Below are positions 4,756 through 28,581 of a stretch of DNA of 30,813 nt, one piece after another (position 1 is the first letter of the stretch; every line of letters starts with the position of its first letter). The notes beneath the pieces are model-generated. The model made no database searches, was not told the origin of the DNA, and was given only the letters and a program-made list of their open reading frames with translations. The stretch comes from a virus. The DNA is taken from IMG/VR virus record IMGVR_UViG_3300042515_000124, positions 1 to 30,813 of that record. One strand, given 5' to 3'. Made by a program: the position numbers and the translations under genes.

Positions 4756-4772
4756 TCTTATTTATCTTATAA
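4756..4772 (-). promoter_or_regulatory. Late-promoter-like motif after the 204-aa gene stop
   Basis: The minus strand reads TTATAAGATAAATAAGA. GATAAATA (4759-4766) begins directly after the TAA stop of the 204-aa gene (4767-4769). A GCGGAGTT ribosome-binding region follows, about 10 bases before ATG 4737. All 17 bases are identical to the copy at 3802-3818. The call rests on similarity to the T4 late consensus and on placement. Confidence 0.65.
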
Positions 4773-5381
4773 AGTAATCTGATTAGTGAGGCTCTGTATT
4801 CTCACCGTGTAATCTATCTGAATCTGACGGTTCAAACTCTTCTGGACAGGGTGAAAAATCACATGTGTCAACAGTCGAGTGATGATATTACCATCATTAT
4901 CAGTCCCGTAATTTGCTAATAACCCTAGTTCGTCAAAGATGAAACTTGAGTCAGTTTGTGTGCTGTTATCGAATGCGTCCTGTCCTGCAGGCTCGCCGTA
5001 ATCTAGTAAACATTGAACTAAAATGTCTGTATATAACTTACCTGAAGTATGATTCACAGTCATTTTGTTGCGTGTAGGATCCAAGTTAAAAACGCTGGTA
5101 TCATCAACGATCTTAGCATAAGTCTCGTTGTACAAGGCAGCATTTTGACCTGTAGTGTTGGGTGGAAGATACGTGATGATACCTGTCTCATCTACGCTTG
5201 CCCCACCGTTTCCAAAGGCCATCTGATATATCTCACCGTATCCGCGATTGCTTAATGTGTCAGCAAGTGCTTCACTCATGTTTTCGTAGTTGATGGCGTT
5301 CTTTTTATCTACGTAAACTTCCATAGTATTTGGATCGTAGATTTTTAAGAAACCCTCAATCTTATATGATAATGTGATCAT
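4767..5381 (-). CDS. Tail-associated protein of marine T4-like phages, 204 aa
   Basis: The N-terminus carries a short strand-turn motif (FLKIYDPNTMEVYVDKKNA, 11-29), followed by YENMSEALADTL (32-43) and an MAFGNGG turn (54-60). The C-terminus ends with LLTHVIFHPVQKSLNRQI and then a strand-rich IDYTVRIQS. I recognise this combination (x-K-I-x-D-x-x-T-x-E-x-x-V-D-K-x-NAI plus YENMS and MAFGNGG) from uncharacterised proteins encoded near the baseplate and fibre genes of marine myoviruses. Structural or assembly roles are inferred from position alone. The ATG abuts the TAA of the 54-aa ORF with no spacer (TAAATG), and AGAGGG lies about 11 bases upstream inside that ORF, so the two are likely translated together. 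No membrane segment or signal peptide is visible. Confidence 0.82.
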   Translation of the reverse strand: MITLSYKIEGFLKIYDPNTMEVYVDKKNAINYENMSEALADTLSNRGYGEIYQMAFGNGGASVDETGIITYLPPNTTGQNAALYNETYAKIVDDTSVFNLDPTRNKMTVNHTSGKLYTDILVQCLLDYGEPAGQDAFDNSTQTDSSFIFDELGLLANYGTDNDGNIITRLLTHVIFHPVQKSLNRQIQIDYTVRIQSLTNQITL

Positions 5382-5546
5382 TTAATCGTCAGCCCTCTTT
5401 TGGACAAAAATTTCATTTGTATTAGGATCAAAAATCTTGACATGTGAAGACATATAAACCCCGTTATTTTCATTGGGTTTTTTGGCTTCAACATCCGGCT
5501 TTTTATCGACAGGTTCTGATTTTTGTCCTATAGATTTATTTATCAT
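5382..5546 (-). CDS. Small ORF (54 aa) with partial copy of the next gene's N-terminal motif
   Basis: Starts 1 base after the giant ORF stop and ends directly against the ATG of the 204-aa gene, filling the gap exactly. Residues 1-30 are charged and Pro/Lys-rich (SEPVDKKPDVEAKKP), probably disordered. Residues 35-52 (HVKIFDPNTNEIFVQKRA) match residues 11-29 of the next protein (LKIYDPNTMEVYVDKKNA), so this looks like a partial paralogue that keeps only the first strand-turn motif. A second in-frame ATG at 5453, preceded by GGGG, would give a 23-aa form containing just this motif. The late-promoter-like octamer overlaps the first ATG, so a transcript from it could only use the inner start; read-through transcripts could use the first. 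No function is known. Confidence 0.6.
   Translation of the reverse strand: MINKSIGQKSEPVDKKPDVEAKKPNENNGVYMSSHVKIFDPNTNEIFVQKRADD
5537..5544 (-). promoter_or_regulatory. Late-promoter-like octamer overlapping a start codon
   Basis: GATAAATA on the minus strand begins at the G of the ATG of the 54-aa ORF, 2 bases after the giant ORF stop. If used like a T4 late promoter, transcription would start near 5530-5525, inside the 54-aa ORF. It would then serve the internal ATG (5453) and the 204-aa gene. Supported by recurrence of the octamer at other gene junctions in the window. Confidence 0.5.
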
Positions 5547-8500
5547 TTACGTAACGTCCACTCTTAAGAAATTTGCACCACTGCTAACGGCTATCTGTAA
5601 AGGATCACCTTGCGACTGGTTATAGATTCCTGGTATTTTATTCCAAGTATCATCATAATTTATCTGACTCATACGGTTGTCTTCTAAAAGGCTGTAAACT
5701 GTGCTGTATTTTGGTATATACACATTTACCATTGATCCTAATGCTCCGCGCTGTACATTGATGATATTGTTTTCTTCGTCAACGTTCAGTATAGTCATGT
5801 ACTCTCCGTTAACATAGATGGTTTTACCTTCTAATGTAGTGATAGTCAATATGTCACCTGCTTGTATCCAATCACCTGACTGAATCAGTACGAATGGTCC
5901 TAGACCAGAAACACGCACAGTGATATAATCTTCATCAATATAACCTAATCTTGCTGGATTATTATTGTATACACGAACCTGCAATATATCGAATCTGTTA
6001 GCGATCAGACCTATCTCATGATTACCAAATACTGCTACAGGAGTCGTATTTGTTTGTGTAGTGCTATTGGTTAATTTGCGAACATCATCTACTTGAATTC
6101 TGTCCATGTATTCACCAATATTTTCTGTCATCCAAGTTCTTGTTTCTGTGTTGGCTCTGTAAACACTACCTTCTCCTGTCTTGTCAACAGTTTGTATATA
6201 AGTTTGTGCGTCAGGACTTGCTGAAGGCATCATGCTAGTGATCACCACTGTATCACCTGGTAAGACTTCAGTTAATATACTGACTTCGTTTGCATCATTC
6301 AATCTTAGATTGTTTGAAGATACACGATAACCATTTACAGTTACCCATAGACGGTCTACGTTAGTTTGTTCCCACTGAGTGACGCGAACGTTGACAGGGC
6401 CGGCGATAGATAATGTTTTAGCAGTTCCACCCTGTGTATCGCTGATACTGAATTCATTATCAAATTCATTGATATCTTTGATATAGTATTTCTGACCTGC
6501 AATGATTTGAGGTATTGATGTCGGATCTCCCAACTCTACCCCATCTTCTGTGAAGTATACAGGAGTCTCTGAAACTAATCCATCAACTTCATCAACTGTC
6601 ATTACCCATTGCTCTGTGACATTGTTGTAGTCTGATTGAGTAGCATACTTATTCTCAAGTATGTAACTATCTGCTAACCATACATATCCGCTACCAGTAT
6701 ATGTGTTCACATTAGTTACTGCTTCTGATGCTGTGTAATCTGTCACGCCCGGTGCATACTCATATAATTCAAACTCAGTGGCACTTGTCACATTGATGAT
6801 GAATTTCTGATTATTCAATTGTGTTGAACCACTAACGCCATCAATTCTAATGATATCATCAATTAATAATCCATGAGGTATTGTTGTAGTCACAGTCACA
6901 GGAATAGTCACGTTGTTGACATAACTGATAGGTGATACTTGGATGCCTGTATATTCTGTTGTAAACAAATATTGACGTTGAGTATCATTGAATGTTGTAA
7001 CTGCAATCGTATCTGTTGGAGTAGGTGCCATGCTGACGAATACTAATGTATCGTTAGCAAAATAGATATTATATTCACTTGGATCTATTCTTAATCCATT
7101 GACTTCTACTATCGCATTAGTTGGATTAGAACCACCTAGATAATTATCTAGTGTGTAAGGTCCAACACTACCTTGACCCAAGAACGTCTGTGTTTGTGGT
7201 AACGTAAATCCATATTGCTGTGGCTCTGTTGGTCCAAAGAATGAGTATGATATATAATCAACTGTCTTATCATAACTGCCTGCAAAAATAATCTTGGCAT
7301 TAACTTGATTTGCTGCCAATGTAGCCGCATAATCATTAGTGATAAAGATTGCTGATCCAGAGGCTGAAGTTAAGTATATTGGATCTCCGGCACCGTTTCT
7401 TATTCTGAACTCAGTAGCACTTACAATCTGATATACATAATAAGTTACATGTGGTATGATGCTACCAAATATAGTATCGCTGAACACTATTGGTTGATCT
7501 ACTATTAATCCAACTGTAGAGAATGTAGTCAATGCATGTGTTGCGGCATTTGTTGCTATTACATAGTTTGTCAAGCCTGAAACTAGTTTAGTACCATTAT
7601 AGAATACTGCTGGCTCAGTCCAGAACTGACCTGATGCTCTTTCAAGTATCACAGACATCTGCCCTGCGTCAGTACTTAGTGGTAGTATAGGACCTGCTAT
7701 ACCTGATACTAATGTATCGCTTACAGTTATAGTGTTTCTAACAGTATTGATTGACTTGATATAATACGGAGTGTTTATAGCAACACCACCGAACACATCG
7801 CCTGCAAAATATACTTCTTCGTTTAATGTAAAGTTAGACACATCATCTACTGTGATGAAGTCTGTACCGCTTTCAGTATCAAATGCTGTTACGCTGATAG
7901 GATAACTATCTGGCTGTACTATACCGCCACCGTTATAACCAAGAGTTGTGTAATTACAATCTAAGTTTATTTCATCAAAACCAGTCACAGCATTTATTTC
8001 TATAGGTTCATTTTCTGTGCTTGACTTGATTAACTGATCGCCATTACCTACTTCATATACATCTATGCGTAATTTTTCGCCTGTTGACAATGCTGAATTT
8101 AGTGTGACTACTTTGGTTACCCAATCAATAGTATAATCAGTTGTTTCATATAATGTGACGCTCAACTCGTCAGTCAACAAGAATACACTGATGTATGCAG
8201 GTGTCTGTACCACTTCGCTGAAACTATATTCATTAGATGCGTCTTCTTCTAGTTCAATAGAAACTACGTTGTAGCCCACATGCGCATACTCAGTAGCAGA
8301 CCAATTTGTACCTGCTCTAGTATTAACAATCATAGTTAATTGATCAGATACGATACCCGGCACTAATTCTTCTGGGCCATAACCTGCTTGGAACGGATCA
8401 CCCTGTACAATATACTCTGGTTCTGGAGTTGAGAACACCTGTGTAGTATCCCATATTACTACTGGCGCTGTGATGTCTAAAGTTTGTAACACAGTATTGT

Positions 8501-11500
8501 TGTCACCAACTATAGTCCACTGACCTCTATCTTCTACATAGATGACATTGTTTAAGTTTTCTGTAGTACCGGTTGCTTTGACTGTGAACGTAGTTCCATC
8601 AGTAGATACTCTTACTACACCGCCATCACCTACTAATACTAATGTGTTATCGGCGAATTCTACAGCATTATAATTTGTAGTACCTTGCTGAGTCTGTAGC
8701 CAAATAGTTCCGTTAGTGCTTGATAATACACCACCGTTAGTTCCTACAGTGTAGATAGTATCAAACCCCGAAGTCACACCCTTGAGTGATCTATTGCTCA
8801 ATCCGGTTATTCTAGTCCAAACTGTTTGATTATAATCTCCTTCTCTTACATCCATGCTCTTTAATATAAGTGGATCGGTTTGATTAGCACCTACTGCAAT
8901 ATATCCGTGGAATTGAGTAGTTTCGACATAAGAAATATCAAATAATTGTCTCGTAATGCCGGGATTTTGCGGGAGCACAAAAATCTCGAACCATAATGAC
9001 GCATCATCACTTACGATTATGTTTTTCGTACCTACAGCAAAATATCTATCATTCTCGTATGACACTGCATTTAATTGTAGCCCTGAAGCAATCAAACGTT
9101 GTTTGAAGAAATCAATAGAATCAACCGGAGTACCGATAGGCACAAGATAACCATTAACACTCCATATTGATTTGTCTGCGCTACTGAACAATGGTGTAGG
9201 ACTGTTTCTAGAACTCATGACATAAATGCCATCACCCCTAGTTATATCAGTCAACGATAATGTTTGATTTGCAAGTTTAGATAATAACCAATCATCTTGT
9301 ACTTCTAAGTCTGCGATCACCGCCGCATAATTAGGCAAGTTAGCAGGTGCAATATAATTAGTACCGTCCCACTCTATTGCAGGTATACTGACCTGAGTTG
9401 GGTCGAATGGTAAATCGACCAACTGTGTATCAACAGGATACTGTTGATCAGGCTGGAACATGTTACCTTTATATGTAGTGTTAGGATAAGTCAATCCTGT
9501 AAACAACTGTGTTAGATCCATGCCAGGCATATTGACGGTTGGTGCATAGTATCCTTTAGCACGATCTAATGCATTGAGTCTACGATCATCTGAACGCAAC
9601 TCTTCCCATTTACCGAACACGAATTCGCTATCATTGTTTGATAATGTACATGCCCATACACGGTTGTTGTATTTCACTATGCTTGGTGTGAATATTAACG
9701 GTTCAGGCAATAGCATGAACGAGCCGGGTTTTGTCGCAGTACCAGAAACTCCTGATCCTGCATTTACAGCAGTATCACCTGGATTGATTGCTACTGTAAT
9801 ATTGTTTCCTGCGACACTCAACACATAATATGTTTGCCCAACTGTTAATGTAATACCTGAATCTAAATCATTGAATACGATAGGATCGTTCACAGCAAAG
9901 CCGGTCGCATCATCTAAAGTTATAACAGTAGACGATACATTTGTTATGCTAGTTTGAGTAAATCCTTGATATGGGAAATTGACTCCGCTTACAGGAACTT
10001 GCATCAATGGATCACTGTAAACTTTGAATGTGTTTGCACCGGTTACTTTCAAGAAGTAAGTTGTTATAGTACCAGTAGGAGTTCCACTGCTTATTACTTT
10101 AGTGATAGCACCATCACTCTGTAATGGTAGTGACCAACTATATGTACCTGCTATGATAGGATTGATTCTTGATACAGTCAATGTTAAATCATTGTCAGGA
10201 GTAGTTCCTCCCAATGCATCACCTGGTATAGTGATCGTGTTATTTTGTGTGAATCCAGTACCACCGTCATTGATGATTACATTGTAACCACCTAAAACGT
10301 ATCCTATATCAAAAGTAGGATCCTGTGTGATTTCTTGATTCCAAGTCACCGATCCAGAATCATTAGTCAATACTACAGTGGCTTGACCTGTACCTGTTTG
10401 TGGGTTACTGTTGCAAGTGAAATCTGTTTGATATGCAGTACCGTCATTGATACCTAAAGTACCCGGGTTCTTAGCATATAAAATATCTTCAGAACTTACT
10501 ACTAGTGTAGGATCGCCAGTCACTGTTCTCCAGAATGCATTAGTATTAGATCCTAAATCTTTTATGATATAATACTTGCCTACTGTTACAGCATTTCCAG
10601 ACACAAGATAAGTCGCACCCAATGATGAGAAAACAGTAGTACCTATGAATTTGATCTCGTAATCATCACCTGATACTAATTCGCCTACAGGCAGATATGA
10701 TTTCATCACAGGGCTACCTGTACCTAGCATATTGCCACTGGCAGTAGTTAATGTCACTGATGATTCGTTTTCTACGGCTGCTATGGTAAATTGTGTTGAA
10801 TTTATTATGTGACGAACATAATATGTGTAATCTAACAATGTGCCACCTAGACTTTGTTCAGTGAATACAATAGGCATGCCTACATACATCATGTTTGTAT
10901 CGAAATCAGTATCGACTGTAATAATACCATTGGTTGTAGTGCAACCAGTGGTCACTACTGGAACAAAATATGTTGTGCTTACTTCATATGTTCCGTTACC
11001 GCCTGAACCAGAAATATAACTTACAATATATGTGTTAGGTTGAACGTTACTTCCTGTGACTAATGATCCTGGATATAATATTCCGGTACCGGATGCATTA
11101 GTTACAGTCATCGTTGTACCTAAGAAACTAGCATCATAAGTCAACAAAGTTCCTGCTGTTGATTGGCAATCTATCAATACATTAGTTAAATCATATGCAT
11201 AATATGTTTTACCAGTTACTAATCCACCGATGTTTGATTCTACAGTGAAAGGTATATCAATATATAAGCCGCTATTATTCTGTTTATATGCTATCTGATT
11301 ATAAGGTGCTAATGTCTGTACGATTGTCTTCTCTAATAGATTTCCATATACTAAATCAGGAGTAGTAACATCAGCATAGTTTTGTGATGATGGATAGAAC
11401 GTGAACGCTTGTCCATCTACTTGACCCGGGCTGATCGGTACGCCTACTACCATAGTAGCATTACCTGAACGTGTGGTTAATGTTAATACATTCGCTTGGC

Positions 11501-14500
11501 TAGTAATAAAGCAATATGTGTCATCAGCGGGTGCAACTACTCCAGTAGAGAATGTAGGTCCACCTACAGTAGTGCTAATAGTAATGACATTGATACCAAT
11601 AGTCTTGATATAATAGATCGTTTGTTTATCAATGTTTCCAAAAGTATCAGATGGTTCGCCATTGATTGCTATGCTATCAAATACTACTGGATCGCCAACT
11701 TCTAAGCCATTAGTATTTTCAACTATGATTTGATTTGCCAAGTTTGTCTGATAGACTCTGACCACAGCAGGCTCAGATGAGAATGCGTCTCTCAATGTGA
11801 ATTCTTCGCTACCCAACACTGAAACTACGTAGAACATAGCATTAGTTCCGAACATTCCGCCGCCTGTAGTAAAGTACACGGGTAGATTTGTATAGAATCC
11901 ATTAGTGCCGCCGGTACCTATATCGGTCAATGCGACTCTTACTGAGTTAGTTCCAGAATATGTGTTAGTTACATTTCTGTAGCCTGAGTATATCGATGTG
12001 AGTACCGCAGTATCAATAACTTTCGCTGTGTACATCTTGAAATCAGCAGATGGGATAGGAGCAAGCGATAGTGCGCTACCACTTTCTGTAGTGCTGATCT
12101 TGAATGTATCAAGACCTATGATCTCATTGATGTAATATGTAGTTCCTTCAACTATCTCAGAACCTGTGTCACCTTCAAACTTGACTGGCATGCCAACATA
12201 GAAACCTATCGTTGATCCTGATGGATACTCATCTGTACCTGAACTAGTGTAACTCAATATAAGTTCATTGTTTGACACGATAGCACTTACTGTACGTTCA
12301 AAACTCGACCAATCTACTTGTCTATCATTTGTTACATTGACTAACGGAAATGCTGTACCTTCTGCGCTAGATAATATAGTATTGATGTCAGGTTGTACTG
12401 AGGCTAATGATACGCTACTGCTTGATGCTTCAAGCAAGTAACTGACAAACTCACCACCGTAGAATGTATTAGGAGCCCAATCAGTTACTTGTGTATCATA
12501 TGTTGTTCTGTCAAAGCGCAATGTGATATTGTTTTCTCTGACAGGATAACTTGATGTTATAGGTGTTGCTCTTGCACCATATTCAAAACTTTGACTGCCG
12601 GTGCCTTGACTCAACAATCTTACTCTAGTGTTGTCGTTCAACGCATCTGCATAAGTTGTATACAATGCCGCGATAGTAGTTGGACTTGAATCCAATACGT
12701 TTACATAATAATATTGACGATCTGCAAGACCACCGATATTCTCGGTACCGGCCACATATCGTACTAGATCACCTGTAGTCAATGCTGGAGCATATAGTTC
12801 TATAGTGTTTGTGACAGTATTCACGTTGCCGCTACTAAAAGTGAAAGTATCAGCAGGATCTATAACGATTTCAGGCAGCACGGCATAGCCTTGACCTGGA
12901 TCTATAATGTTTATTCCTACTACACTGTCTAGGCTCATGACAGCCTCAAGAACTGCTTCTTGTCTTGGTTCTGGATATACAGTAGTGTCTATTACTGCTA
13001 TAACTCTAGGAGGGTTAGCATAGCCACGACCGCCATCTAATAATAATACACCCGGTAGATTCATATAAATCAATTCACCCGGTAAGTGATCTACGATAGT
13101 AGTTCCGTCTACGCCCCTAGTCAAGCCAGTAATGATGCCGGTTGCACGATCTACTGTAGCATAACTTATCTTTTCTGAACCTATAGTGAATGTTCCGTTG
13201 ATTGGGAATCCTTGTGGATTATCAACAATGATATTCTGGCTAGTGATAGTTAGATATGATTCTAATGTTGCTATCTGATAATTGTCTTGACCGGATAGAC
13301 TTACTCCGTGATTATCAAACCATTCTTTATATTTTTCAGTCTGCCATATAGGATCATCTGGTAAGAATTCATATTCTGTATCAGCATTGTTGTATACTAA
13401 TTCAGGGCTTACGAATCTATCTATAGTTGTGTCATAAGTCGCAGGCAAATCAAAATCAGTTAATGTGCCTGGATATACATCGCCACCTGTGTAATCGAAT
13501 AAGAATTCTTTGATGACTACGTGATATGGTTTAGTTTCATTCACATAACCTTCTAAGAATAGTTCATTGTCGCTTACGAAATTTTGTAATGGTTTTAGTT
13601 CACGAATTTTGTGGGCCACATCAACTAATGATGTCTTGTTCAACCATGGTAGATAGTTTTGATTTTCATCAGTTTCTTCTTGAATATATTCGAACAACAA
13701 TATCAAACTCTTGTTTCTGTAAATCAACAATTCGTTTGTATAAATCTGTTCGTTCAAGGCGCGCATGATCCAGCGTGTTTCTTCGCTTGGATATACGTCA
13801 TAACTGTCAGTATCGTAGAACGTGCCGCCGAAACCAAATCCGGCTGCGTTGTAATCAAATAGTTCATCTTTGAATCTGATAGTACCGTTCTGTAATCCTA
13901 TTCTAGTCCAAACTCCATCACCATCATAGCGATATGTTTCAGTAGCACCATAGCCGTTTTGTGCTACAGTAACGATAGTACCTGATGCAAATTCAAGCGC
14001 AGATAAATCAGCATATATAGGTACCTGTGTGACAGACTTAGTGTTGTTGTCATAACCTGGTGCCCACCAGTTGATATACTCCCAATAGTTACTAGTATCA
14101 TAATAAGTTCCTGAAGTGTTCAAGAAATTAAATGATCTGATCTCGCTGATCGGGAACAGTTTCATTATAGTGTTTGCAAACTGTAGATAGTTCTTTATCG
14201 CAAGATATCTGTTATAGAAGAAACTCTGTCTTGGTCTTGCCAACACGCCTGATTGTACTGCTTTAGGTAAGAATGGGTTAGGTACTACTGCACCGGTCTC
14301 ATCTACACCTGATAAACTGTCTAATAATCTGTCATATAATGACTGTGGTGTGACATAGCCTCTTGTTCCAGGCACGCCCGGTAAGAAGTCATCAGCATAA
14401 TCTGTTCGTATCAATGTGAATGATTGATGAGCAGGATTATCTTGCTGTCCAGTACTGAATCCTATCTGTAACACAGTGCTATTTGCATTCAAGAATTGTT

Positions 14501-17500: not shown

Positions 17501-20500
17501 TTACGTCATTTATGTTGACATAGCCTGCATCTGGATATACTTCATAATTAATGTTATCTTCTAATAAAGGTAATATGTTAGGATTGTTGATAGGTCTATT
17601 ATAATTGAACAATGAATATAGAGGAACAAGTTGTTGCGCACCTTCTACGTCATTACCATTAGTTATACCTACGATGCTTGGGTTGGCAGTTAGATTATTC
17701 TCGTTCAATCTAAATTGAATAAAGTTGTCGTTTAATGTTCCGCCGAACGTACCTTGCAATATACCCCAGTTCTCGTATATGTCGTAATCGATACCGCCTT
17801 GAGGTAAGTTAGCACCCTTGAATGCCTTAACTGCGTTCAATGTACCTTTTTCTTTGATCAAGTTTTTATAGATGTTGACCTGTGTGATGTCTGTCAAGTC
17901 AGCACTTGCCATGTATTCTCTTGGTCTAAATCCAATCAAACTGAAACTCAACAAATCTGCATCTTTTTCTAAGTTGGCAGTGTTGGTGTTGTAGTACAAT
18001 GCGCTCTCATAACTACGTGTGCTACTGTTCGGTAATAATCCTTTTTGAATCTCATCGTAATCAGTTTGCTTCCACTCTTCTTCTTTGAATTTCTTTCCAG
18101 GCTGCACGATCTGCAATGCAGTGAAGAATTTGTTTTTGTACTTGACGATAGCGCCCTTAGTATACTTTAAGTCAGGGCTCCACTGTTCGATATTATCTTG
18201 ATTATAGATGAAACCGCTAGCAAATAATGTTCCGTTCCATTCTCCGCTCTTAGTGCCGCGTAGATATATGCGGTTCTGCTTTAATCCTGATATCAGATTA
18301 TAGATAGTGTCGTTGAACAATGTCTCATTCTGGAAAACAATACCGTGTTCGATATTGCTTAGATTGAATTGTCCATATGCTACTGCATCACCTTCGTTGA
18401 GTGGTTTAACAGAGAACAAAGTGCCATCTCTGAATATGTTCAAATCTTTATTCTGTATAGGATACAGATTGTTGTTTAATATGAAATTATTATTAGCATA
18501 AGTCAATGGTTGTACAACTTGACTTTCTTTGTTGATAGTCAATTGTAGTGCCGCTGGATTCAATGTCAATATACTACCTTGTGTCCAGCCTGTCTGTGCC
18601 CAATATAAGAACTCGGCGACCATCTGTCTCCAAGATACTTGTATGTTCTGTATCTGGTCATCAAATACTGCACCATTCTCTTCTAACCAAGCACCGTAGT
18701 TCAACAAGAACTGTGATACTTCTTGGTATGTATAGAATACAGTGCCATATGGTACGATCTCTTCTTGTGCTGTATATCTATCTGCTACTTGTATGCTGAC
18801 ATCTTGTACTGTTATTCTGCTTCTTTGACCATTTGTTATAGGTTTCAAAGTCTTGAAATATGCAGTAGTCTGGCTGTTACCAAACACAGCAAATCCTTCA
18901 GCCACGCTTTGTACTACTACACCTGAGTATACCAATTTTGTCATTGGTTGATTCTCGTATAGTATTACTTGATAACTTTCATCAGGAATCAACAATGAAC
19001 TGTTTCTTGATTCAGGTGTTCCTTTTTCTACAAAGAACTTCAATAATGACTTATCGCTAAAGCCTGCTAGGCGATATACTAATCTTACGTCTAAGTTATT
19101 CAATAGGTCAGTGATGTTCTGGGTAGCATCAACACCTAACTGTTTCTGATAGTCTACTATCCAGTTTAAGTATGATGTCTTGGCGACACCATTGCCATAA
19201 ATCTCTATCTCTGACGGCACTAAGTGTGTTCTACCATTTACTAAGAACTGATTAAACTCAACATTGTATTTGTAGTTGTCAATGTCAGCACCTAGATTAT
19301 AGAATATAGCAGGTTTCAATAATGCTTCAAGGCGCATCAAGTCGAACGGATATGTTGAACTCTTGCGATATGAATATTCTACTGGAGCATCATCACCCAC
19401 TCTCCAATCGCGCTGGAATGATAGTTGATTATAGTTTGCGATGACTGTATCTAATGGTTCTTTTAGATTGCCTTGGTCGTCGACCGGTATGATATCTAGC
19501 AACCCTGGTCTCTGATATAATGGTCTTACTATAGGATCGCCGTTATTATAATCGATACCATCTTGTAAATCTGTCCACAATATCAAGTTGTCACTAGTAT
19601 ATGGTGCGGCTCCATAACGACCTTCCCACCAAGTTGGTTTGTTAGCGTAACCTATCATAGCCCATGGTGTCAAGTTTGGTGTTGAAGTGTCATATACATA
19701 TTCATATATGCCTCTCCAATATCCTTGCAATATCTGGCTACCATCTAACTTGAATGTGCTTTGTTCTCTGTAGTTGTATGTATAAGGGTCGGTTGATCTA
19801 TACAATTGAGTTTTGTAATTCAATCTATTTTGGCCGGCCCAGTCTAAGAAGTTTCTGCTGTATATATCAGTCCATTCAAAATAAGTCAATGATGAATCTC
19901 TGAAGTACCCCGGTACGATCTCTGCAAGATCGACAGGTAAAGTATTGCTTAACTTGATGTTATTATAAACTCTAGTCTCAAATTCTAATAAAGCCTGATC
20001 TCTGAAATCTACAGGTAATCCTATAACTTCATTATAGTCACCGTATAATTTATTATACGAACCATCATGTCCTTGTATGAAATATGTTGGTTCTTGATAA
20101 GTGGTATCTAGTAAAACTTTAGGTTCGTATAATGGATACAAGCCTAATTTAGTAGGAGTGTTTGGAATATATGAACCATATGTCTGGTTATATTCTTTGA
20201 TGATGATCTTATCGCCACTCTCTAAAAATTTAGTTACTGTTACGCTAGGGCTGTCTGTGCTTACGATATATTCAATATTTTTTATTAATTGTTTTGTTAC
20301 TATTATACCTTGTATTCTTCGTTGCGAGTATACCAGCACGCCGTCATAATTGGCTGTGCTGAAATCGTAAATCTTGCTCAATGGGAATACACTAGTCTCA
20401 GACTGGTTAGCAAAATTGTATGTGTTACTGATATATGGCGCCTTGTTAGGTATCATATCAGACCAGAAGAAAGGTTGTTCTTGGCTCTTGACTGAAGTTA

Positions 20501-23500
20501 TAACATCAATCGCTTCATCCAACAACATTGCTGGATCGTATTTTTGCTGGTATGATATCTTATCGACAGTATCGATCAAGAGAGTCTTAAATTTAATGTA
20601 CTCTCTACTGTTGTACATCAAAGCATCATATAAGTTGTTTCTAGGATTTCTTAATAATGCGCCGGGTAATACTAAACTTGCGCTATTCTGAATAATGCGA
20701 TTACCCCATGGCACTAAGTTACCTAGATCACGATAATTGTTAGGACCAAACATTACTCCGGTAGTGTCTGGATTGTTATCATAGATAGATTGATAATGAC
20801 CGCGAATATCTCCTATATCTACAGTTGCAGGATCAGCATTGAATGGATTATTTGATAAGTTGATAGGTATAGTATAATACGCATCTTGGCTTACCTTATC
20901 GCTCAATATCAATACTTGTATAGGTGTATCAATGTCTTCTGTTAACTTGATTGTGATTATAGTTGATGTTGAAGTATTTTCCACAGTATAATCAGTATCC
21001 AACGTCAATATATCATTGTTGTTGTATACTTCAAGGCTTGGCCATATAGTATCATCTACGTTTAACTGTGGTACATTAACAGTCACAGTATAATCAAAAG
21101 TATCACCTGGATCTAATACCGTTACAGGATTGTTTGCTTTATAATCAAATTGGAATAATTGATATTGTGTACTTGGTGCTACTGCTGTCTGCCAGCCGAT
21201 CAATCTTTCATAATCAACTCTAGATGAATAATTGTATACAAAACCATTCTTTACAGTCGATGTTATAGAATTTCCGTTATTGATATAATCAAATGTTTGA
21301 GTATATAATGATACTTCGAATGATATATCACCTACGTTATTGATCGAACTGAAACTGATAGGGAAACCTAAAATCGTGTCATTGATTCCTACGCCAAGTT
21401 TATAGTTGAACAACTTACAACCATCAAATGTTGAAGAGTTATATACAACTTGGTCACCATAACTTATGCCGTTTTCATCAAAGATATCAAACAACGGTGC
21501 TTGATTGACTGTCTGTTTTTGTTGTGCTTGAACATAATCTAAGCCGTTAAAATAGAAAGTTTTTCCTATGTTGTTGAAACCTCTTTGTACCGCAAACATA
21601 TCATCGTCAACAACATCACCGTCTGCTGTTTCAGTAAGTGTAATGACTGGATATGTTTCGGATCCGGTAGTATTAAAGTTTACTGTGTAAATCTTGTTTC
21701 TGATTAATTCATTTTCGTCTGCGGCAAATACTACTCTTGATCCTGGGAACAAGAGTAAGTCAGCGTTATTCTTTGTAGCAGCCACAAAACTTGCACCGGT
21801 ACCCGATGCGATGTCTGCAGGTAAAGGCCAATATACAGTAAGCAAATAAGGATCAGTAGTATCTACAGAAAGAATTCTAGTTCCGGCTGGTAATCTGCTC
21901 TCTTCACCTAAGATCAAATCATTGATCCATTGTCCTTGTGTGAATACACCTGTGACATAATCAGGGTCGATACTTACTGTAGTGACTGTTTTTGGTAGTA
22001 TTTGTCCTGAACCTTGCACGGCGGTTCCTGTACCGAAAGCGGATCCGGTGGCGACGAAATTTTGCGGCATCGCTGAACCAAGACCTACATCTGCACTTAC
22101 TACTGTTATCTTATCGCCTACTTTGTATGTGACTCCTGTAGTACCGGCTACAACGTTCCAATCAGTACCTACACCCAAATCCCATATAAAATACACATTA
22201 CCGGGTACTAATAAACCTGAATTGACCGTAGCATTACCTATCAATTGCCATTGAGTAGTACCTAGACTTACTATTGAATATTCTAAACCAGCAGTCAATG
22301 AATCTGAATTAACTATACCACTTTGTGTTGCTTGGAATAATGTTTTTAATGCTGTACCATTGCCAGTACCATCGCCCGGAGTTAGTGCAGTAAATATAGT
22401 ACCTACGCTATAAGATCCAGGTCCACCTATTGTTACCCAATCGGTAGTGCCTAGATCAGTAATGATATATTCTTCATTGGTCTCGAATTCACCGTCTTGT
22501 TGTGATTCGGCTCCTAATAATTCCCATGTCTCTGCCTCTGTAGTTCCTAGGCTAGTGATCTGATAATATTGATCTTGCAATAATGATGACAGTGTTACAG
22601 ATATATTATTAGGATTAATAGTTCCTTCATATTCAGTATATGTCTGTACATCAGGATAATAATTCTGTTGATTTTCAACAAAGTCAAATGCGTTGGTTGT
22701 TCTTGTATCTATAAAGTCTATATTATTTTTACCAACGATACCTGAATTGAATAACTTCAAATTAGGATAGAATTCAATGATGGGTCTTTTTGCTTTGTTT
22801 AAAGGAGTAGCATAAACATCCGGGATAGTAGGATTGTTATTGTATTCTGCTGTGGAATTGATGACATCAATATGGAACCAGCGATTGCTACGTGACCATG
22901 CATTCTTGTTTATTGAATTTCTTGCTATGGTTATGTAATCAGGTGTTTCTGGAACATTCAAACTATCGTCATATGGTCCTATGTCATACGGTAATATATC
23001 ATATGGACTTGATGTTAGTGTAGTGAAAGGTTCTGGTACTACTAATTCTTCTACTGAGATCAATTCGATTCCTGTACCTACACCTTGAACGTAATATTCT
23101 CCGTCCAAGTAACTTCTAGGAATCACGTCACCGCTAAATTGTACTTTCAATCCATTGGTGAATACTACGCCGTTTTTAGCAGTGTAGTTTATTTTTCCAA
23201 GTATATCGTTAGTTACGTCGATTACGTTAGTCTCATTATTTTCAATTAGTTTGATTATACCAACTCTGTTAGGGTTAGTGCCATCTTGATAATAAAGAGT
23301 ATCTAAAGGTGCAGATATATATGGAATTAATTCTATGTAGCCGGCTAGATTTTTAAAGAAGTTAAGACCTACATATTGTGTACCGTATAACGCAGTGATC
23401 TTTTGTTCGATAGGTATCAATCCTGCAGGGATAAGTCTTAATGTAGGATCATCTCTATCACCTTCGAAAATGATCGTATAGAAATTATCGTTTACTTCTG

Positions 23501-25136
23501 TATAGAAACCTTCTTCATATTGACCTTGATTAATGAAAGCAGTCATGCTTCCTGAGGCAGCCGATATCGGACTGAATGTAGGACCATTCAATGATTCTGA
23601 TATAGTGATGGTGTTATCGCTAGGATTAATACCAGTGATATAATAGATTGTAGGTTCATATTCAACTACTAATCCAGTTGTTGATGGTATAGAGTCACAA
23701 GTAAATATCTTACCCAATTGTATAGCATAAACATTGATCGTGTCTCTTGGTATATTTTGAGAAACATCTATTGTATAAGTTGGTACACCGTTAGCCGCAG
23801 TTGCGATCATATCATAGCCAACTATCTTTGTACCGTTTGTTACTCCTGCACCATTCAATGTATTACCTATACTGAATGCTCCAGAAATAGTATTATAAAC
23901 CCTTAGTTCTGTTCCTACTATCTCTGCATCTAATACTGCATTTTCATTGACTCCGGCAGCGATCCAATCAACATTACCTAATTCATAGATAAAGTATTTC
24001 TTACCTACAACCATAGATGTCGCATCACTAGGAATGATGACGTTAGGATCATATGGTAGTATTCCACCGAAACTTGTTCCGCTAAATGTTAATGTGTTTC
24101 CTACTATTAAGTTAGCAGTATCACTTACTGTTAATCTTCCAAGACCATTTATTGCTGTAGCAGTTATCGTCTTTATACCATTTAATGTTCTATTTTTATC
24201 ATATATGGTTGTGTCGTAGAATATGCTGACATAACCTGTTTCATTCTGTATGCCAGTGTTATAGAACATCACTGTTCTACCATTCAATGAAGTCACTCCG
24301 TCGATGCTTCCTATATCTGAAAGTCTAGCACCATTGATTTGACTGAATGGTAATGTGCTGACAACTCCTACAGTGTTATCACCGGGGAAATTATATTCAT
24401 TTTGTGCATCCTTTTGTGGTACATCAAAAACAACTACACCGTTGTTTGCTCCGTTGTTAGTGACACCGTATACATCTCTAGTCTGCACATTAGTTTGAGT
24501 TGGGTCGTAACCTGTTACGCCTGGAACACCTTGAATCCAAAATTGAGTTTGTTGATTAACGTTGAATGTATATCTACCACCACGCAACATTGTTATCGTA
24601 GGATTATTTGACCCAGCACCTGCGCCCTCTGCTCTTATGTTATATGCACTAGGTAATGCTGTTACTTGATAATCATTTGTCGTATATACTGTTGATGCCG
24701 CTACCGTTACGGCGGGAGGACCATCTGGTAGCCAGTAATACTGACTATAATTGATGATCATGTCTAAATTAGTGAAACTATCCCAACTATAAAATTGGCT
24801 CTTAAACAAATCATTATTGTTGTTTGTGATAGCACCTTGTAATTTTAAAGAATCTAATATACCTGGATAACTGATAAAATCATATGCAGTTACTTCATTG
24901 TTCTTTAAGAATGCTACGCCCGGTTCTAACTGATAATCTCTGCGAACCTTGTTTGGTTCTGTTACATAATAATCTTTCGCATCGACACCATAACCAAACT
25001 TACTACCAACATAACCTTGTATCGTTTTTGTTACAGGTGGATTTACCAATTGGTCTAATGTTGCGGCCAAAAACTGACTATTAGTTTCAGTCTGAAATAT
25101 GCCCGGTAGAAAATCTAGTGTTCTTATTCTGGTCAT
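5547..25136 (-). CDS. Giant modular baseplate/tail structural protein, 6529 aa (gene 7 position)
   Basis: One frame of 19.6 kb with no interruption. Residues 1-160 (RTLDFLPGIFQTETNSQFL, a QLEPGVAF element, YYWLPDGP) match the start of very large structural proteins that follow gene 6 in marine T4-like phages. Other conserved blocks, in order: NPRNNLYDALMYNSREY (about 1500), GHDGSYNKLYGDYNE (about 1690), PTWWEGRYGAAPYT (about 1830), FNDTIYNLISG and FIYNQDNIEQWSPDLKY (about 2285-2320), LEGYVNETKPYHVVIKEFLF (about 3850), and the last 60 residues (TWNKIPGIYNQSQGDPLQI). Between them lie insertions: LGTTDW-type modules (about 375, 850-1045, 2870, 4825), a seven-repeat FG-GAP propeller (about 2725-3335), strand modules with TYYV cores (about 4100-6250) and an Asp-box propeller (about 5315-5555). 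No signal peptide or catalytic motif is seen. The start lies 1 base after the gp6 stop with no clear ribosome-binding site, so translation is probably coupled. T4 gp7 is about 1030 aa; equivalence is positional, not shown by sequence. Confidence 0.9.
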   Translation of the reverse strand: MTRIRTLDFLPGIFQTETNSQFLAATLDQLVNPPVTKTIQGYVGSKFGYGVDAKDYYVTEPNKVRRDYQLEPGVAFLKNNEVTAYDFISYPGILDSLKLQGAITNNNNDLFKSQFYSWDSFTNLDMIINYSQYYWLPDGPPAVTVAASTVYTTNDYQVTALPSAYNIRAEGAGAGSNNPTITMLRGGRYTFNVNQQTQFWIQGVPGVTGYDPTQTNVQTRDVYGVTNNGANNGVVVFDVPQKDAQNEYNFPGDNTVGVVSTLPFSQINGARLSDIGSIDGVTSLNGRTVMFYNTGIQNETGYVSIFYDTTIYDKNRTLNGIKTITATAINGLGRLTVSDTANLIVGNTLTFSGTSFGGILPYDPNVIIPSDATSMVVGKKYFIYELGNVDWIAAGVNENAVLDAEIVGTELRVYNTISGAFSIGNTLNGAGVTNGTKIVGYDMIATAANGVPTYTIDVSQNIPRDTINVYAIQLGKIFTCDSIPSTTGLVVEYEPTIYYITGINPSDNTITISESLNGPTFSPISAASGSMTAFINQGQYEEGFYTEVNDNFYTIIFEGDRDDPTLRLIPAGLIPIEQKITALYGTQYVGLNFFKNLAGYIELIPYISAPLDTLYYQDGTNPNRVGIIKLIENNETNVIDVTNDILGKINYTAKNGVVFTNGLKVQFSGDVIPRSYLDGEYYVQGVGTGIELISVEELVVPEPFTTLTSSPYDILPYDIGPYDDSLNVPETPDYITIARNSINKNAWSRSNRWFHIDVINSTAEYNNNPTIPDVYATPLNKAKRPIIEFYPNLKLFNSGIVGKNNIDFIDTRTTNAFDFVENQQNYYPDVQTYTEYEGTINPNNISVTLSSLLQDQYYQITSLGTTEAETWELLGAESQQDGEFETNEEYIITDLGTTDWVTIGGPGSYSVGTIFTALTPGDGTGNGTALKTLFQATQSGIVNSDSLTAGLEYSIVSLGTTQWQLIGNATVNSGLLVPGNVYFIWDLGVGTDWNVVAGTTGVTYKVGDKITVVSADVGLGSAMPQNFVATGSAFGTGTAVQGSGQILPKTVTTVSIDPDYVTGVFTQGQWINDLILGEESRLPAGTRILSVDTTDPYLLTVYWPLPADIASGTGASFVAATKNNADLLLFPGSRVVFAADENELIRNKIYTVNFNTTGSETYPVITLTETADGDVVDDDMFAVQRGFNNIGKTFYFNGLDYVQAQQKQTVNQAPLFDIFDENGISYGDQVVYNSSTFDGCKLFNYKLGVGINDTILGFPISFSSINNVGDISFEVSLYTQTFDYINNGNSITSTVKNGFVYNYSSRVDYERLIGWQTAVAPSTQYQLFQFDYKANNPVTVLDPGDTFDYTVTVNVPQLNVDDTIWPSLEVYNNNDILTLDTDYTVENTSTSTIITIKLTEDIDTPIQVLILSDKVSQDAYYTIPINLSNNPFNADPATVDIGDIRGHYQSIYDNNPDTTGVMFGPNNYRDLGNLVPWGNRIIQNSASLVLPGALLRNPRNNLYDALMYNSREYIKFKTLLIDTVDKISYQQKYDPAMLLDEAIDVITSVKSQEQPFFWSDMIPNKAPYISNTYNFANQSETSVFPLSKIYDFSTANYDGVLVYSQRRIQGIIVTKQLIKNIEYIVSTDSPSVTVTKFLESGDKIIIKEYNQTYGSYIPNTPTKLGLYPLYEPKVLLDTTYQEPTYFIQGHDGSYNKLYGDYNEVIGLPVDFRDQALLEFETRVYNNIKLSNTLPVDLAEIVPGYFRDSSLTYFEWTDIYSRNFLDWAGQNRLNYKTQLYRSTDPYTYNYREQSTFKLDGSQILQGYWRGIYEYVYDTSTPNLTPWAMIGYANKPTWWEGRYGAAPYTSDNLILWTDLQDGIDYNNGDPIVRPLYQRPGLLDIIPVDDQGNLKEPLDTVIANYNQLSFQRDWRVGDDAPVEYSYRKSSTYPFDLMRLEALLKPAIFYNLGADIDNYKYNVEFNQFLVNGRTHLVPSEIEIYGNGVAKTSYLNWIVDYQKQLGVDATQNITDLLNNLDVRLVYRLAGFSDKSLLKFFVEKGTPESRNSSLLIPDESYQVILYENQPMTKLVYSGVVVQSVAEGFAVFGNSQTTAYFKTLKPITNGQRSRITVQDVSIQVADRYTAQEEIVPYGTVFYTYQEVSQFLLNYGAWLEENGAVFDDQIQNIQVSWRQMVAEFLYWAQTGWTQGSILTLNPAALQLTINKESQVVQPLTYANNNFILNNNLYPIQNKDLNIFRDGTLFSVKPLNEGDAVAYGQFNLSNIEHGIVFQNETLFNDTIYNLISGLKQNRIYLRGTKSGEWNGTLFASGFIYNQDNIEQWSPDLKYTKGAIVKYKNKFFTALQIVQPGKKFKEEEWKQTDYDEIQKGLLPNSSTRSYESALYYNTNTANLEKDADLLSFSLIGFRPREYMASADLTDITQVNIYKNLIKEKGTLNAVKAFKGANLPQGGIDYDIYENWGILQGTFGGTLNDNFIQFRLNENNLTANPSIVGITNGNDVEGAQQLVPLYSLFNYNRPINNPNILPLLEDNINYEVYPDAGYVNINDVKVSAYFFNNLPTGVDKNREIVPINNIYVGDYIWLADYRASWQILTPTSIGQVILVRNNLNNTCTVTFDKDHNLSQFDIFSIINFDSAVNGYYVVTNVVNTRQVLVTLSLPNGTKAITGFGIGLQFQTQRVAQPGNIQSLPLLDFEFVKNTVWVDENTNGDWAVYRKNINYSYEKEFNKQNSEKFGSAVAYSPLSDYLFSDPNLGEVYRYQYDVTDGDYQLDETLTGDVSFGTTIVHEQNIYVISQPENTPKVFLYTVNNTKVSDNIILYQEIDATDIDPSITNFGKATALSGDLNWLFISDFDEDISSARNNVHVYRRTNVETDAGSFVVGKTYQITSIGDTDFEEVGAVTNAIGIYFIATGIGSGTGTAKSVDYEYLTTIASGSTAIDKFGHSLSTNYYGTTLVVGAPNQDHLATNNGRSYIYDRLVQNYQIQQEYVVGDTVDFTLIWAPTVGQPLTVTKNGILIDSTDYSFTGTTFSYLGNFTIGDILTVSGNEFVLVQELSNANNPRNGSQFGFSVDNNTQGTEILVGTPFYLSTANQEGAAFRYTYGGARFGIIAGTTNTNVTASRSILVNGYLVNISVGDSTQAATNINNANIINVQASSVNGKLIISLINFDLASANQELLLSADLTTLSELGIDLYTQTQIVQNPHSTGPSQFGTVVKFNDQNSVAISAPSGTRYTLTSFDFVDDANYQNDTIFDNNSTQFIDTFNNAGAVYTFEYLGNYNESLQNIGNYTYAQSVNAQNLVYGSQPRYGSAIDWSDDKIVIGSPDYRPEDIDGQVVIYVNNTGEKNWSVLRHANPVVDIERIYNIQMFDGETNNTLSNLDYIDPLQGKLLGAVQQNIDVISNIDPANYNNVNSPQGMIWGEAQTGSIWFDTSNIKYINYHQNDNSYNARYWGTLFPGSDVAVCTWVASNVLPSSYQGPGVPRDITNYTVQTVLNSSNTITPVYYFWVRNYGIVSPGKSLADINIAAYINSPVSSGISYLTPINSDAVALYNTKQFLNANSTVLQIGFSTGQQDNPAHQSFTLIRTDYADDFLPGVPGTRGYVTPQSLYDRLLDSLSGVDETGAVVPNPFLPKAVQSGVLARPRQSFFYNRYLAIKNYLQFANTIMKLFPISEIRSFNFLNTSGTYYDTSNYWEYINWWAPGYDNNTKSVTQVPIYADLSALEFASGTIVTVAQNGYGATETYRYDGDGVWTRIGLQNGTIRFKDELFDYNAAGFGFGGTFYDTDSYDVYPSEETRWIMRALNEQIYTNELLIYRNKSLILLFEYIQEETDENQNYLPWLNKTSLVDVAHKIRELKPLQNFVSDNELFLEGYVNETKPYHVVIKEFLFDYTGGDVYPGTLTDFDLPATYDTTIDRFVSPELVYNNADTEYEFLPDDPIWQTEKYKEWFDNHGVSLSGQDNYQIATLESYLTITSQNIIVDNPQGFPINGTFTIGSEKISYATVDRATGIITGLTRGVDGTTIVDHLPGELIYMNLPGVLLLDGGRGYANPPRVIAVIDTTVYPEPRQEAVLEAVMSLDSVVGINIIDPGQGYAVLPEIVIDPADTFTFSSGNVNTVTNTIELYAPALTTGDLVRYVAGTENIGGLADRQYYYVNVLDSSPTTIAALYTTYADALNDNTRVRLLSQGTGSQSFEYGARATPITSSYPVRENNITLRFDRTTYDTQVTDWAPNTFYGGEFVSYLLEASSSSVSLASVQPDINTILSSAEGTAFPLVNVTNDRQVDWSSFERTVSAIVSNNELILSYTSSGTDEYPSGSTIGFYVGMPVKFEGDTGSEIVEGTTYYINEIIGLDTFKISTTESGSALSLAPIPSADFKMYTAKVIDTAVLTSIYSGYRNVTNTYSGTNSVRVALTDIGTGGTNGFYTNLPVYFTTGGGMFGTNAMFYVVSVLGSEEFTLRDAFSSEPAVVRVYQTNLANQIIVENTNGLEVGDPVVFDSIAINGEPSDTFGNIDKQTIYYIKTIGINVITISTTVGGPTFSTGVVAPADDTYCFITSQANVLTLTTRSGNATMVVGVPISPGQVDGQAFTFYPSSQNYADVTTPDLVYGNLLEKTIVQTLAPYNQIAYKQNNSGLYIDIPFTVESNIGGLVTGKTYYAYDLTNVLIDCQSTAGTLLTYDASFLGTTMTVTNASGTGILYPGSLVTGSNVQPNTYIVSYISGSGGNGTYEVSTTYFVPVVTTGCTTTNGIITVDTDFDTNMMYVGMPIVFTEQSLGGTLLDYTYYVRHIINSTQFTIAAVENESSVTLTTASGNMLGTGSPVMKSYLPVGELVSGDDYEIKFIGTTVFSSLGATYLVSGNAVTVGKYYIIKDLGSNTNAFWRTVTGDPTLVVSSEDILYAKNPGTLGINDGTAYQTDFTCNSNPQTGTGQATVVLTNDSGSVTWNQEITQDPTFDIGYVLGGYNVIINDGGTGFTQNNTITIPGDALGGTTPDNDLTLTVSRINPIIAGTYSWSLPLQSDGAITKVISSGTPTGTITTYFLKVTGANTFKVYSDPLMQVPVSGVNFPYQGFTQTSITNVSSTVITLDDATGFAVNDPIVFNDLDSGITLTVGQTYYVLSVAGNNITVAINPGDTAVNAGSGVSGTATKPGSFMLLPEPLIFTPSIVKYNNRVWACTLSNNDSEFVFGKWEELRSDDRRLNALDRAKGYYAPTVNMPGMDLTQLFTGLTYPNTTYKGNMFQPDQQYPVDTQLVDLPFDPTQVSIPAIEWDGTNYIAPANLPNYAAVIADLEVQDDWLLSKLANQTLSLTDITRGDGIYVMSSRNSPTPLFSSADKSIWSVNGYLVPIGTPVDSIDFFKQRLIASGLQLNAVSYENDRYFAVGTKNIIVSDDASLWFEIFVLPQNPGITRQLFDISYVETTQFHGYIAVGANQTDPLILKSMDVREGDYNQTVWTRITGLSNRSLKGVTSGFDTIYTVGTNGGVLSSTNGTIWLQTQQGTTNYNAVEFADNTLVLVGDGGVVRVSTDGTTFTVKATGTTENLNNVIYVEDRGQWTIVGDNNTVLQTLDITAPVVIWDTTQVFSTPEPEYIVQGDPFQAGYGPEELVPGIVSDQLTMIVNTRAGTNWSATEYAHVGYNVVSIELEEDASNEYSFSEVVQTPAYISVFLLTDELSVTLYETTDYTIDWVTKVVTLNSALSTGEKLRIDVYEVGNGDQLIKSSTENEPIEINAVTGFDEINLDCNYTTLGYNGGGIVQPDSYPISVTAFDTESGTDFITVDDVSNFTLNEEVYFAGDVFGGVAINTPYYIKSINTVRNTITVSDTLVSGIAGPILPLSTDAGQMSVILERASGQFWTEPAVFYNGTKLVSGLTNYVIATNAATHALTTFSTVGLIVDQPIVFSDTIFGSIIPHVTYYVYQIVSATEFRIRNGAGDPIYLTSASGSAIFITNDYAATLAANQVNAKIIFAGSYDKTVDYISYSFFGPTEPQQYGFTLPQTQTFLGQGSVGPYTLDNYLGGSNPTNAIVEVNGLRIDPSEYNIYFANDTLVFVSMAPTPTDTIAVTTFNDTQRQYLFTTEYTGIQVSPISYVNNVTIPVTVTTTIPHGLLIDDIIRIDGVSGSTQLNNQKFIINVTSATEFELYEYAPGVTDYTASEAVTNVNTYTGSGYVWLADSYILENKYATQSDYNNVTEQWVMTVDEVDGLVSETPVYFTEDGVELGDPTSIPQIIAGQKYYIKDINEFDNEFSISDTQGGTAKTLSIAGPVNVRVTQWEQTNVDRLWVTVNGYRVSSNNLRLNDANEVSILTEVLPGDTVVITSMMPSASPDAQTYIQTVDKTGEGSVYRANTETRTWMTENIGEYMDRIQVDDVRKLTNSTTQTNTTPVAVFGNHEIGLIANRFDILQVRVYNNNPARLGYIDEDYITVRVSGLGPFVLIQSGDWIQAGDILTITTLEGKTIYVNGEYMTILNVDEENNIINVQRGALGSMVNVYIPKYSTVYSLLEDNRMSQINYDDTWNKIPGIYNQSQGDPLQIAVSSGANFLRVDVT
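6400..12850 (-). repeat. Divergent TYYV beta-module repeats in the giant protein
   Basis: At least ten units share the pattern: a short strand with GL-x-V/D, then P/D-x-V-x-F, a loop with GG, then T/K-x-YY-V/I, then F/I-x-I-S and a Gly-rich end. Examples are IVEGTTYYINEI and TFKISTTESG (about 12,160-12,090), DKQTIYYIKTI (about 11,610), TVGQTYYVLSV (about 9835), INTPYYIKSI (about 7760), IIPHVTYYVYQI (about 7450) and IIAGQKYYIKDI (about 6490). Outliers occur near 23,640 and 24,060. They are divergent at DNA level, so they are old duplications or separately acquired modules rather than recent slippage. Confidence 0.7.
8480..9190 (-). other. Asp-box (BNR/YCF48-like) propeller region of the giant protein
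   Basis: About 235 residues with five Asp-box-like turns of the S-x-D-x-x-x-x-W type: SSADKSIWSV, VSDDASLWFEI, a longer KSMD...TVWTRI, SSTNGTIWLQT and VSTDGTTFTV. Each is followed by strands of the type YFAVGTKN, YIAVGANQ, IYTVGTNGG, LVLVGDGG and WTIVGDNN. This is the repeat signature of beta-propellers of the sialidase/YCF48 kind. No sialidase catalytic Arg triad can be assigned, so a binding or scaffolding role is more likely than enzymatic activity. Confidence 0.65.
15135..16960 (-). other. Seven-repeat FG-GAP-type propeller region of the giant protein
   Basis: Seven blade starts can be read in order: FGSAVAYS, FGTTIVHE, FGKATALS, FGHSLSTN, FGFSVDNN, FGTVVKFN and YGSAIDWS. Most are followed by a strand with V/I-G-x-P or equivalent (LVVGAPNQD, ILVGTPFY, VAISAPSG, IVIGSPDY) and a closing G-x-V/A-Y/F-x-Y strand. 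This is the arrangement of integrin-type FG-GAP beta-propellers, which have seven blades. Extra domains are inserted between blades 3 and 4, 4 and 5, and 5 and 6. Surface recognition is the usual role of such folds; here it is inferred. Confidence 0.65.
18075..18195 (-). other. CBM5/12-like motif in the giant protein
   Basis: Residues about 2315-2353 read EQWSPDLKYTKGAIVKYKN, then KFFTALQ, PGKKF and EEEWKQTD. The pattern W-x-x-x-x-x-Y-x-x-G-x-x-V-x-Y-x-N-x-x-(F/Y)-x-A...P...W matches the short carbohydrate-binding fold of families 5 and 12 (chitin-binding type V/XII). It lies in a block conserved in the protein family, so it may be structural rather than sugar-binding. Confidence 0.5.
22005..22580 (-). 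repeat. Tandem LGTTDW-type modules in the giant protein
   Basis: Four imperfect repeats follow each other over about 190 residues: QITSLGTTEAETWELLG, YIITDLGTTDWVTIGG, YSIVSLGTTQWQLIGN and YFIWDLGVGTDWNVVAG. They share Gly/Thr-rich linkers of the type GTIFTALTPG and GTGNGTA. More units appear alone elsewhere: ELGNVDWIAAG (about 23,990), ITSIGDTDFEEVG (about 16,500), KFIGTTVFSSLG and KDLGSNTNAFW (about 10,650-10,540). The module type is common in marine phage structural proteins. Function is unknown. Confidence 0.75.
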
Positions 25137-28566: not shown

Positions 28567-28581
28567 AAAAACCGAGTTTTT
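28567..28581 (-). other. AT-rich inverted repeat between gp25 and gp6
   Basis: AAAAAC-TCG-GTTTTT can form a 6-bp stem with a 3-base loop directly after the gp25 stop codon. One more T follows the stem. With a single C-G pair the stem is weak, so termination is doubtful. It may only pause polymerase or protect a 3' end. Confidence 0.3.

Follow-up and report, generated by a model that had tools for sequence, protein, structure and literature searches.

A giant phrog_10938-type protein of 6,529 amino acids encoded in the gene-7 position of an environmental phage

Organization of the locus

The window (the whole stretch of DNA analyzed here, 30,813 nt) is the entire 30.8-kb virus record IMGVR_UViG_3300042515_000124. 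The gene order on the minus strand is as follows: an Ala-rich ORF, gp25, gp6, the giant ORF, a 54-aa ORF, the gene of a 204-aa phrog_11259 protein, two fibre-like ORFs (labelled so by eye from the sequence), and small genes (Table 1). The PHROG search yielded no match for the Ala-rich ORF (29050-30813). The window gp6 aligns with gp6 of P-SSM2 (hhalign, P 95.9%); it is enlarged compared to T4 gp6 (660 aa), as are its counterparts in RaK2-type relatives. A single nucleotide separates the TAA stop codon of gp6 from the ATG of the giant ORF (junction GCATAAGATG), which suggests that translation of the giant gene is coupled to that of gp6.

An ORF of 50-54 aa is retained 3' of the giant gene in contigs L117, L118, L093, L094, L101 and L106. 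It looks like a partial duplicate of the 204-aa protein, whose N-terminus is similar to the C-terminal half of the small ORF. The 204-aa ORF was considered as a candidate gp8, and this assignment is unsupported (hhalign P 0.1-0.2% against gp8). Downstream of the tail genes, positions 889-2488 of the minus strand contain two adjoining ORFs that by eye resemble glycosyltransferases, with no confident family match.

Table 1. Features of the window (all amino acid positions refer to the giant protein)
Feature	Coordinates	Strand	Characteristics
gp25 baseplate wedge homologue	28580..29032	-	150 aa; phrog_261 / 43
gp6 baseplate wedge homologue	25138..28533	-	1,131 aa; phrog_10646 (E 1.7e-254), phrog_219 (E 1.8e-22)
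Giant ORF	5547..25136	-	ATG start; 6,529 aa, 720 kDa, pI 4.3; phrog_10938-type, gene-7 position
Core block I	24714..25136	-	aa 1-141; in 50/50 homologues, same order
Variable insertion site, blocks I-II	23490..24242	-	aa 299-549; 0-250 aa, 36 homologues
Core block II	22692..23207	-	aa 644-815
Variable insertion site, blocks II-III	21768..22661	-	aa 826-1123; 0-366 aa; 4 of 7 LGTTDW copies
Core block III	20457..21758	-	aa 1127-1560
Core block IVa	18807..20174	-	aa 1655-2110
Core block IVb	18207..18779	-	aa 2120-2310
CBM5/12-type (chitin-binding-like) W module	18072..18197	-	aa 2314-2355
Core block IVc	17637..18071	-	aa 2356-2500
FG-GAP beta-propeller-like region	15117..17099	-	about aa 2680-3340, between IVc and V
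Core block V	14157..15119	-	aa 3340-3660
Core block VI	13302..14099	-	aa 3680-3945; last block in common with sequenced isolates
C-terminal part, FCCH-like and other modules	5550..13301	-	aa 3946-6529
Possible second propeller-like insert	8637..9269	-	about aa 5290-5500; Pfam DUF6242, E 3.9e-4, below cut-off
Small conserved ORF	5382..5546	-	54 aa; between giant gene and 204-aa gene
phrog_11259 protein, conserved downstream neighbour	4767..5381	-	204 aa; E 1.6e-65

The giant open reading frame

The giant ORF contains no internal stop over 63.6% of the window and is 6.3 times as long as T4 gp7 (1,032 aa), in agreement with the initial annotation, which had described one uninterrupted frame covering 64% of the window, about six times the length of T4 gp7. 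At the composition of this ORF, the chance of a stop-free run of 6,529 codons is about 10^-205. The protein is rich in Thr, Val, Asn and Gly, and contains 10 Cys residues. Compared with the homologue on contig L092, each block of 650 codons shows a divergence of 0.51-0.62 at third and 0.17-0.31 at second codon positions; since third positions are the more divergent in every block, the coding constraint extends over the full ORF.

The unusual length of the frame and its origin from a 30.8-kb metagenomic contig could point to an assembly chimera or to a collapsed read-through of several genes, a concern that had been raised along with the initial annotation. However, the separately assembled contig L011 is nearly identical to the giant gene (10 differences per 18,850 nt, 8 of the 10 at third positions), and contig L012 shows 88 differences per 8,792 nt, 66 of them at third positions. 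A scan of viral contigs for relatives of the giant protein returned 119, of which 80 were kept; 23 further distinct homologues on other contigs are long frames of 5,717-6,510 aa, having in common the N-terminus (RIRTLxFLPxIFxTxTN.QFL.ATLDQL) and, in nearly all cases, the C-terminus GDPLQIS...FL. The match to an independent contig, together with 23 divergent homologues arranged in the same way, practically rules out an assembly artefact. As several homologue-bearing contigs are 200-364 kb long, the phages with this gene are jumbo phages. The giant gene is real and common to dozens of environmental jumbo phages.

Family assignment and presence in virions

The N-terminal 60% of the giant protein matches phrog_10938 (hmmscan), a 3,324-position profile annotated as "virion structural protein", with E-values of 7.9e-33, 5.7e-83, 2e-81 and 6.3e-54 for successive N-terminal pieces, and the profile search gave no phrog_10938 match for the last two C-terminal pieces. 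RaK2-type proteins match the family of the giant with P near 100% (hhalign). The NCBIfam search of the giant gave nothing useful, PDB sequence searches produced no match except a sub-threshold one over the CBM-like module, and the scan of viral contigs with the Atu_ph07 core returned that phage as the sole match.

The order gp25, gp6, large protein is the same in GAP32, RaK2, XaC1, Vibrio 2.275.O, PA5oct, Atu_ph07 and Phosso, where the phrog_10938 members following gp6 are 3,341, 3,326, 3,332, 3,771, 3,857, 4,449 and 4,555 aa long, respectively. The exception in the family is the Salicola phage SCTP-2, whose homologue (3,807 aa) is encoded apart from gp6; in this phage a further ORF of 3,096 aa lies directly before the homologue (L007:557-9847). 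With its profile match, core blocks I-VI in order (see below) and position directly 3' of gp6, the giant is an expanded phrog_10938 member, descending from a RaK2/PA5oct-type protein.

The window phage is uncultivated, and presence of the protein in virions is reported for relatives. The homologue CBB_236 was found there by mass spectrometry (MS) with 21 unique peptides (PMC5259590), and 17 MS peptides were reported for the virion protein gp245 of phAPEC6 (382 kDa), adjoining the gp6-like gp244 (PMC7247149); from the size of gp245 and its position beside gp244 we infer that it is a homologue of the giant. For PA5oct gp355, ESI-MS/MS detection is annotated in its record. In relatives, the MS peptides cover a small part of the protein (about 8%), so that proteolytic maturation is possible, and the location within the virion is not given by MS.

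Core blocks and inserted modules

Using block profiles built from the environmental family, we located eight core blocks (I, II, III, IVa-c, V and VI, about 2.1 kaa), which follow one order in 50 of 50 proteins of 3,122-6,529 aa. In 36 homologues, no site between aa 1161 and 2747 changes in length by 25 aa or more, and about 2,300 window residues fall into 45 variable sites. The spacing between blocks I and II reaches about 510 aa among homologues. Blocks IVc and V are separated by about 220 aa in GAP32, about 220-510 aa in compact isolates, roughly 710-1,180 aa in larger environmental forms, and about 1,530 aa in Atu_ph07 and Phosso, and the tail after block VI varies from about 500-900 aa up to 2,584 aa.

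AlphaFold models were obtained for the segments aa 1560-2640 (pLDDT 76.6) and aa 3290-4100 (pLDDT 73.2, pTM 0.38). The only clear match of the former in PDB (Foldseek) is the CBM5/12 module; in BFVD, this segment matches unannotated phage proteins and the structural protein of Atu_ph07. The CBM5/12-type W module itself matches 2d49 (Foldseek prob 1.00, TMt 0.69) and, below the cut-off, Pfam CBM_5_12 (E 0.0074). The window contains two copies, the second being weaker (aa 5150-5177); in PA5oct, Atu_ph07 and L141 the module is found elsewhere in the chain. The FG-GAP region scores 35.4 bits with Pfam FG-GAP_2 (cut-off 23), and an LGTTDW module sits between its repeats (aa 2876-2915).

Recurring small modules were found by iterated profiles, the window containing seven LGTTDW, 11 FCCH-like and two IGxE/RG..G copies. 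In 24 giants, all 61 LGTTDW copies and 228 of the 280 FCCH-like ones fall into variable columns (22 and 99, respectively, are expected by length), an enrichment that is partly circular, since modules coming and going make columns variable. In the C-terminal part, two anchors, CT1 (aa 5180-5260) and CT2 (aa 6255-6345), are conserved and recur in environmental relatives, and the last 2,579 aa (aa 3951-6529) had no tblastn match in 50,697 phage records.

Growth and fission of the gene

In a FastTree tree built from 1,345 columns of core blocks IVa-VI and rooted at the midpoint (the rooting being not independent), protein length forms a ladder from compact forms of 3.1-3.9 kaa through L134/L137 (4.5-4.7 kaa) and a clade of 4.5-5.2 kaa to the window clade of 5.7-6.5 kaa; Atu_ph07 and Phosso reached 4.5 kaa by a rise of their own. 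The extra length of the giants lies between the blocks and in the C-terminal third absent from sequenced isolates, which supports growth of the protein through inserted small beta modules. The ladder fits stepwise growth, with the direction of the change in size taken from the midpoint root.

The initial annotation had proposed that a single ancestral scaffold grew as domains were inserted into it, and the block order (50/50), the recurrent insertion sites and the length increasing along the tree agree with this. It had also placed conserved blocks in order from the first to the last 60 residues. The fixed order, with variable stretches in between, was confirmed, and the conservation reaches the last residues only in environmental contigs, as in sequenced isolates the conserved blocks stop near residue 3,945. 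Separate genes in homologues, which it had set against a single protein, occur in two relatives. The giant gene is divided into 4,110 and 1,087 aa in L064 and into 6,260 and about 613 aa in L107, one of the 23 long-frame homologues above, in both cases with an ATGA stop/start overlap (L064:18322-18325 and L107:18834-18837). The two genes are split at different points and both are nested in the giant clade, and the splits are apparently derived fissions, though a sequencing frameshift may be the source of either. Two relatives having divided the gene, a single chain is not essential.

Relation to T4 gp7

The giant occupies the slot directly after gp6, as gp7 does in T4 (order gp25-gp6-X), and in this sense its assignment to the gene 7 position stands. 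The accompanying claim that its scaffold is that of T4 gp7 found no support. The giant has no match to phrog_964 or to the Pfam domains Gp7_helical, Gp7_5th and Gp7_6th (hmmscan), and in hhalign, where other T4 baseplate proteins served as controls, every slice of it gave P <=1.1% against a six-sequence gp7 profile, whereas the positive control, T4 gp7 against cyanophage gp7, gave P 88-96%. The gp7/TssG fold is marked by a trifurcation domain and a three-helix bundle, and Foldseek against PDB found no gp7 match for the two AlphaFold segments modelled, the second of which has a pTM of 0.38. The N-terminal helix of the family was compared with the cyanophage gp7 N-terminus and with gp6, and nothing was found. 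Neither T4 nor P-SSM2 matches phrog_10938; in four clade contigs of 335-364 kb, phrog_10938 is present and T4 gp7 was not found. Moreover, no recognizable gp8 comes after the giant, the next genes being the 54-aa ORF and the phrog_11259 gene.

The KGT motif at about aa 2393 was considered as a Tail_P2_I/TssG/gp7 signature and rejected, being not significant and having neither a Pfam nor a fold match. Thus, homology to T4 gp7, sought by hmmscan, BLAST, hhalign slices and the structure of two segments, is not supported, and "gene 7" here denotes a position. From these negative tests it follows that either the gp7 place is taken by a non-homologous protein or the homology is beyond the reach of these tests.

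Proposed role

We consider it probable that the giant, as an expanded phrog_10938 member, assembles into the baseplate wedge in the place of T4 gp7 with its modules directed outward. Made right after gp6, it would join gp6 and gp25 in each wedge and occupy the place held by gp7 in T4. The core blocks would serve as the wedge scaffold, and the inserted modules (FG-GAP propeller, CBM5/12-type, FCCH-like, LGTTDW) would point outward, where they could make the periphery larger, anchor fibres or contact glycans on the host surface; judging from the module types, many binding surfaces on one baseplate are plausible. As no test shows T4 gp7 homology, the wedge role rests on the gene order and on the MS data for relatives, while the SCTP-2 homologue encoded apart from gp6 and the gene split in two relatives count against it.

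The gene order also agrees with a true T4 gp7 orthologue, diverged past sequence recognition and enlarged by insertions, which would be the T4/TssG/P2 gpI member of the (gp6)2-gp7 heterotrimer. Contractile systems in general have the (gp6)2-gp7 / (TssF)2-TssG arrangement (PMC6300606), so this place is expected to be occupied by some protein, and no other gp7 was found in the large contigs of the clade. The KGT motif also resembles FYxxKG of T4 and cyanophage gp7, and hhalign pairs this segment with cyanophage gp7, non-significantly. However, with positive controls working, hmmscan, the Pfam Gp7 domains and hhalign were negative, as was Foldseek for aa 1560-2640 and aa 3290-4100, which makes such orthology doubtful. 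It is rather unlikely that the giant is a peripheral tail-fibre or adhesin-like protein beside gp6, the gp7 role being played by an unrecognized gene elsewhere. Its beta-rich, acidic make-up of repeated modules, including CBM5/12 and FG-GAP ones, short Foldseek matches to tailspike and baseplate receptor-binding domains, and the separate location of the SCTP-2 homologue agree with this, but the strictly ordered core of about 2.1 kaa with a length-invariant stretch of 1,590 aa is unlike fast-varying fibres, and the place after gp6 is kept in nearly all lineages.

The family provides a phylogenetically ordered series of one virion protein from 3.1 to 6.5 kaa, in which insertion sites, modules and later fissions can be read, and this makes baseplate enlargement in jumbo phages testable. 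In addition, position-based "gp7" labels can hide proteins with no detectable gp7 homology.

Comparison with known systems

T4 gp7 shares with the giant the slot after gp6; no sequence, profile or (for the two segments) fold similarity was found between them, and their sizes differ six-fold. The closest known proteins are those of RaK2/GAP32/CBB, XaC1, Vibrio 2.275.O, Atu_ph07, Phosso and PA5oct (3.3-4.6 kaa), which likewise follow gp6, have core blocks I-VI in the same order with roughly 21-35% identity and, in several isolates, are followed by a phrog_11259 protein of about 200 aa, as in the window. The giant differs from them in being up to twice as long, with extended insertions separating blocks I and II, II and III, and IVc and V (the FG-GAP propeller), and in its C-terminal part of 2.6 kaa that has no counterpart in isolates.

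Cyanophage gp7 proteins resemble the giant in their slot after gp25-gp6 and in size: gp7 of P-SSM2, encoded between gp6 and gp8, is 5,195 aa long, and other proteins annotated as gp7 "baseplate wedge initiator" have 4,878 aa (Sf-CH5), about 4,446 aa (P-HM1), 4,225 aa (ACG-2014f) and 4,067 aa (Bellamy). In Synechococcus phage S-SSM7 (L127:8989-25695) there are two large "gp7" genes, of 3,007 and about 3,000 aa, with a gp9-like gene between them. Small modules (IGxE/RG..G, GGxGY, FCCH, CBM5/12-type) are common to cyanophage gp7 and the window giant; no global homology was found between them, the best BLAST E-value being 0.032 and the hhalign matches only module-sized. The T4 gp7-like segment of cyanophage gp7 (P 88-96%) was not detected in the window family. 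Tentatively, two or more giants without common ancestry (T4/cyanophage gp7 and phrog_10938) may have come to occupy the gene-7 place, each growing by the uptake of modules from a shared pool. On this reading the window clade is the extreme, where some 0.7 MDa per copy would make up a baseplate periphery of interchangeable beta modules, the counterpart inside one gene of cassette exchange among fibre genes.

Proteins of up to 7,694 aa, some tentatively structural and with no family named in the text consulted, are reported for huge phages (PMC7162821), so the giant, at 6,529 aa, is similarly very large and is not a size record. Hence, giant proteins in the gene-7 slot (cyanophages) and phage proteins of up to 7,694 aa are already known, while what is new is the clade of 5.7-6.5-kaa proteins, the C-terminal part that it does not share, and the map of blocks and modules that marks the sites of growth.
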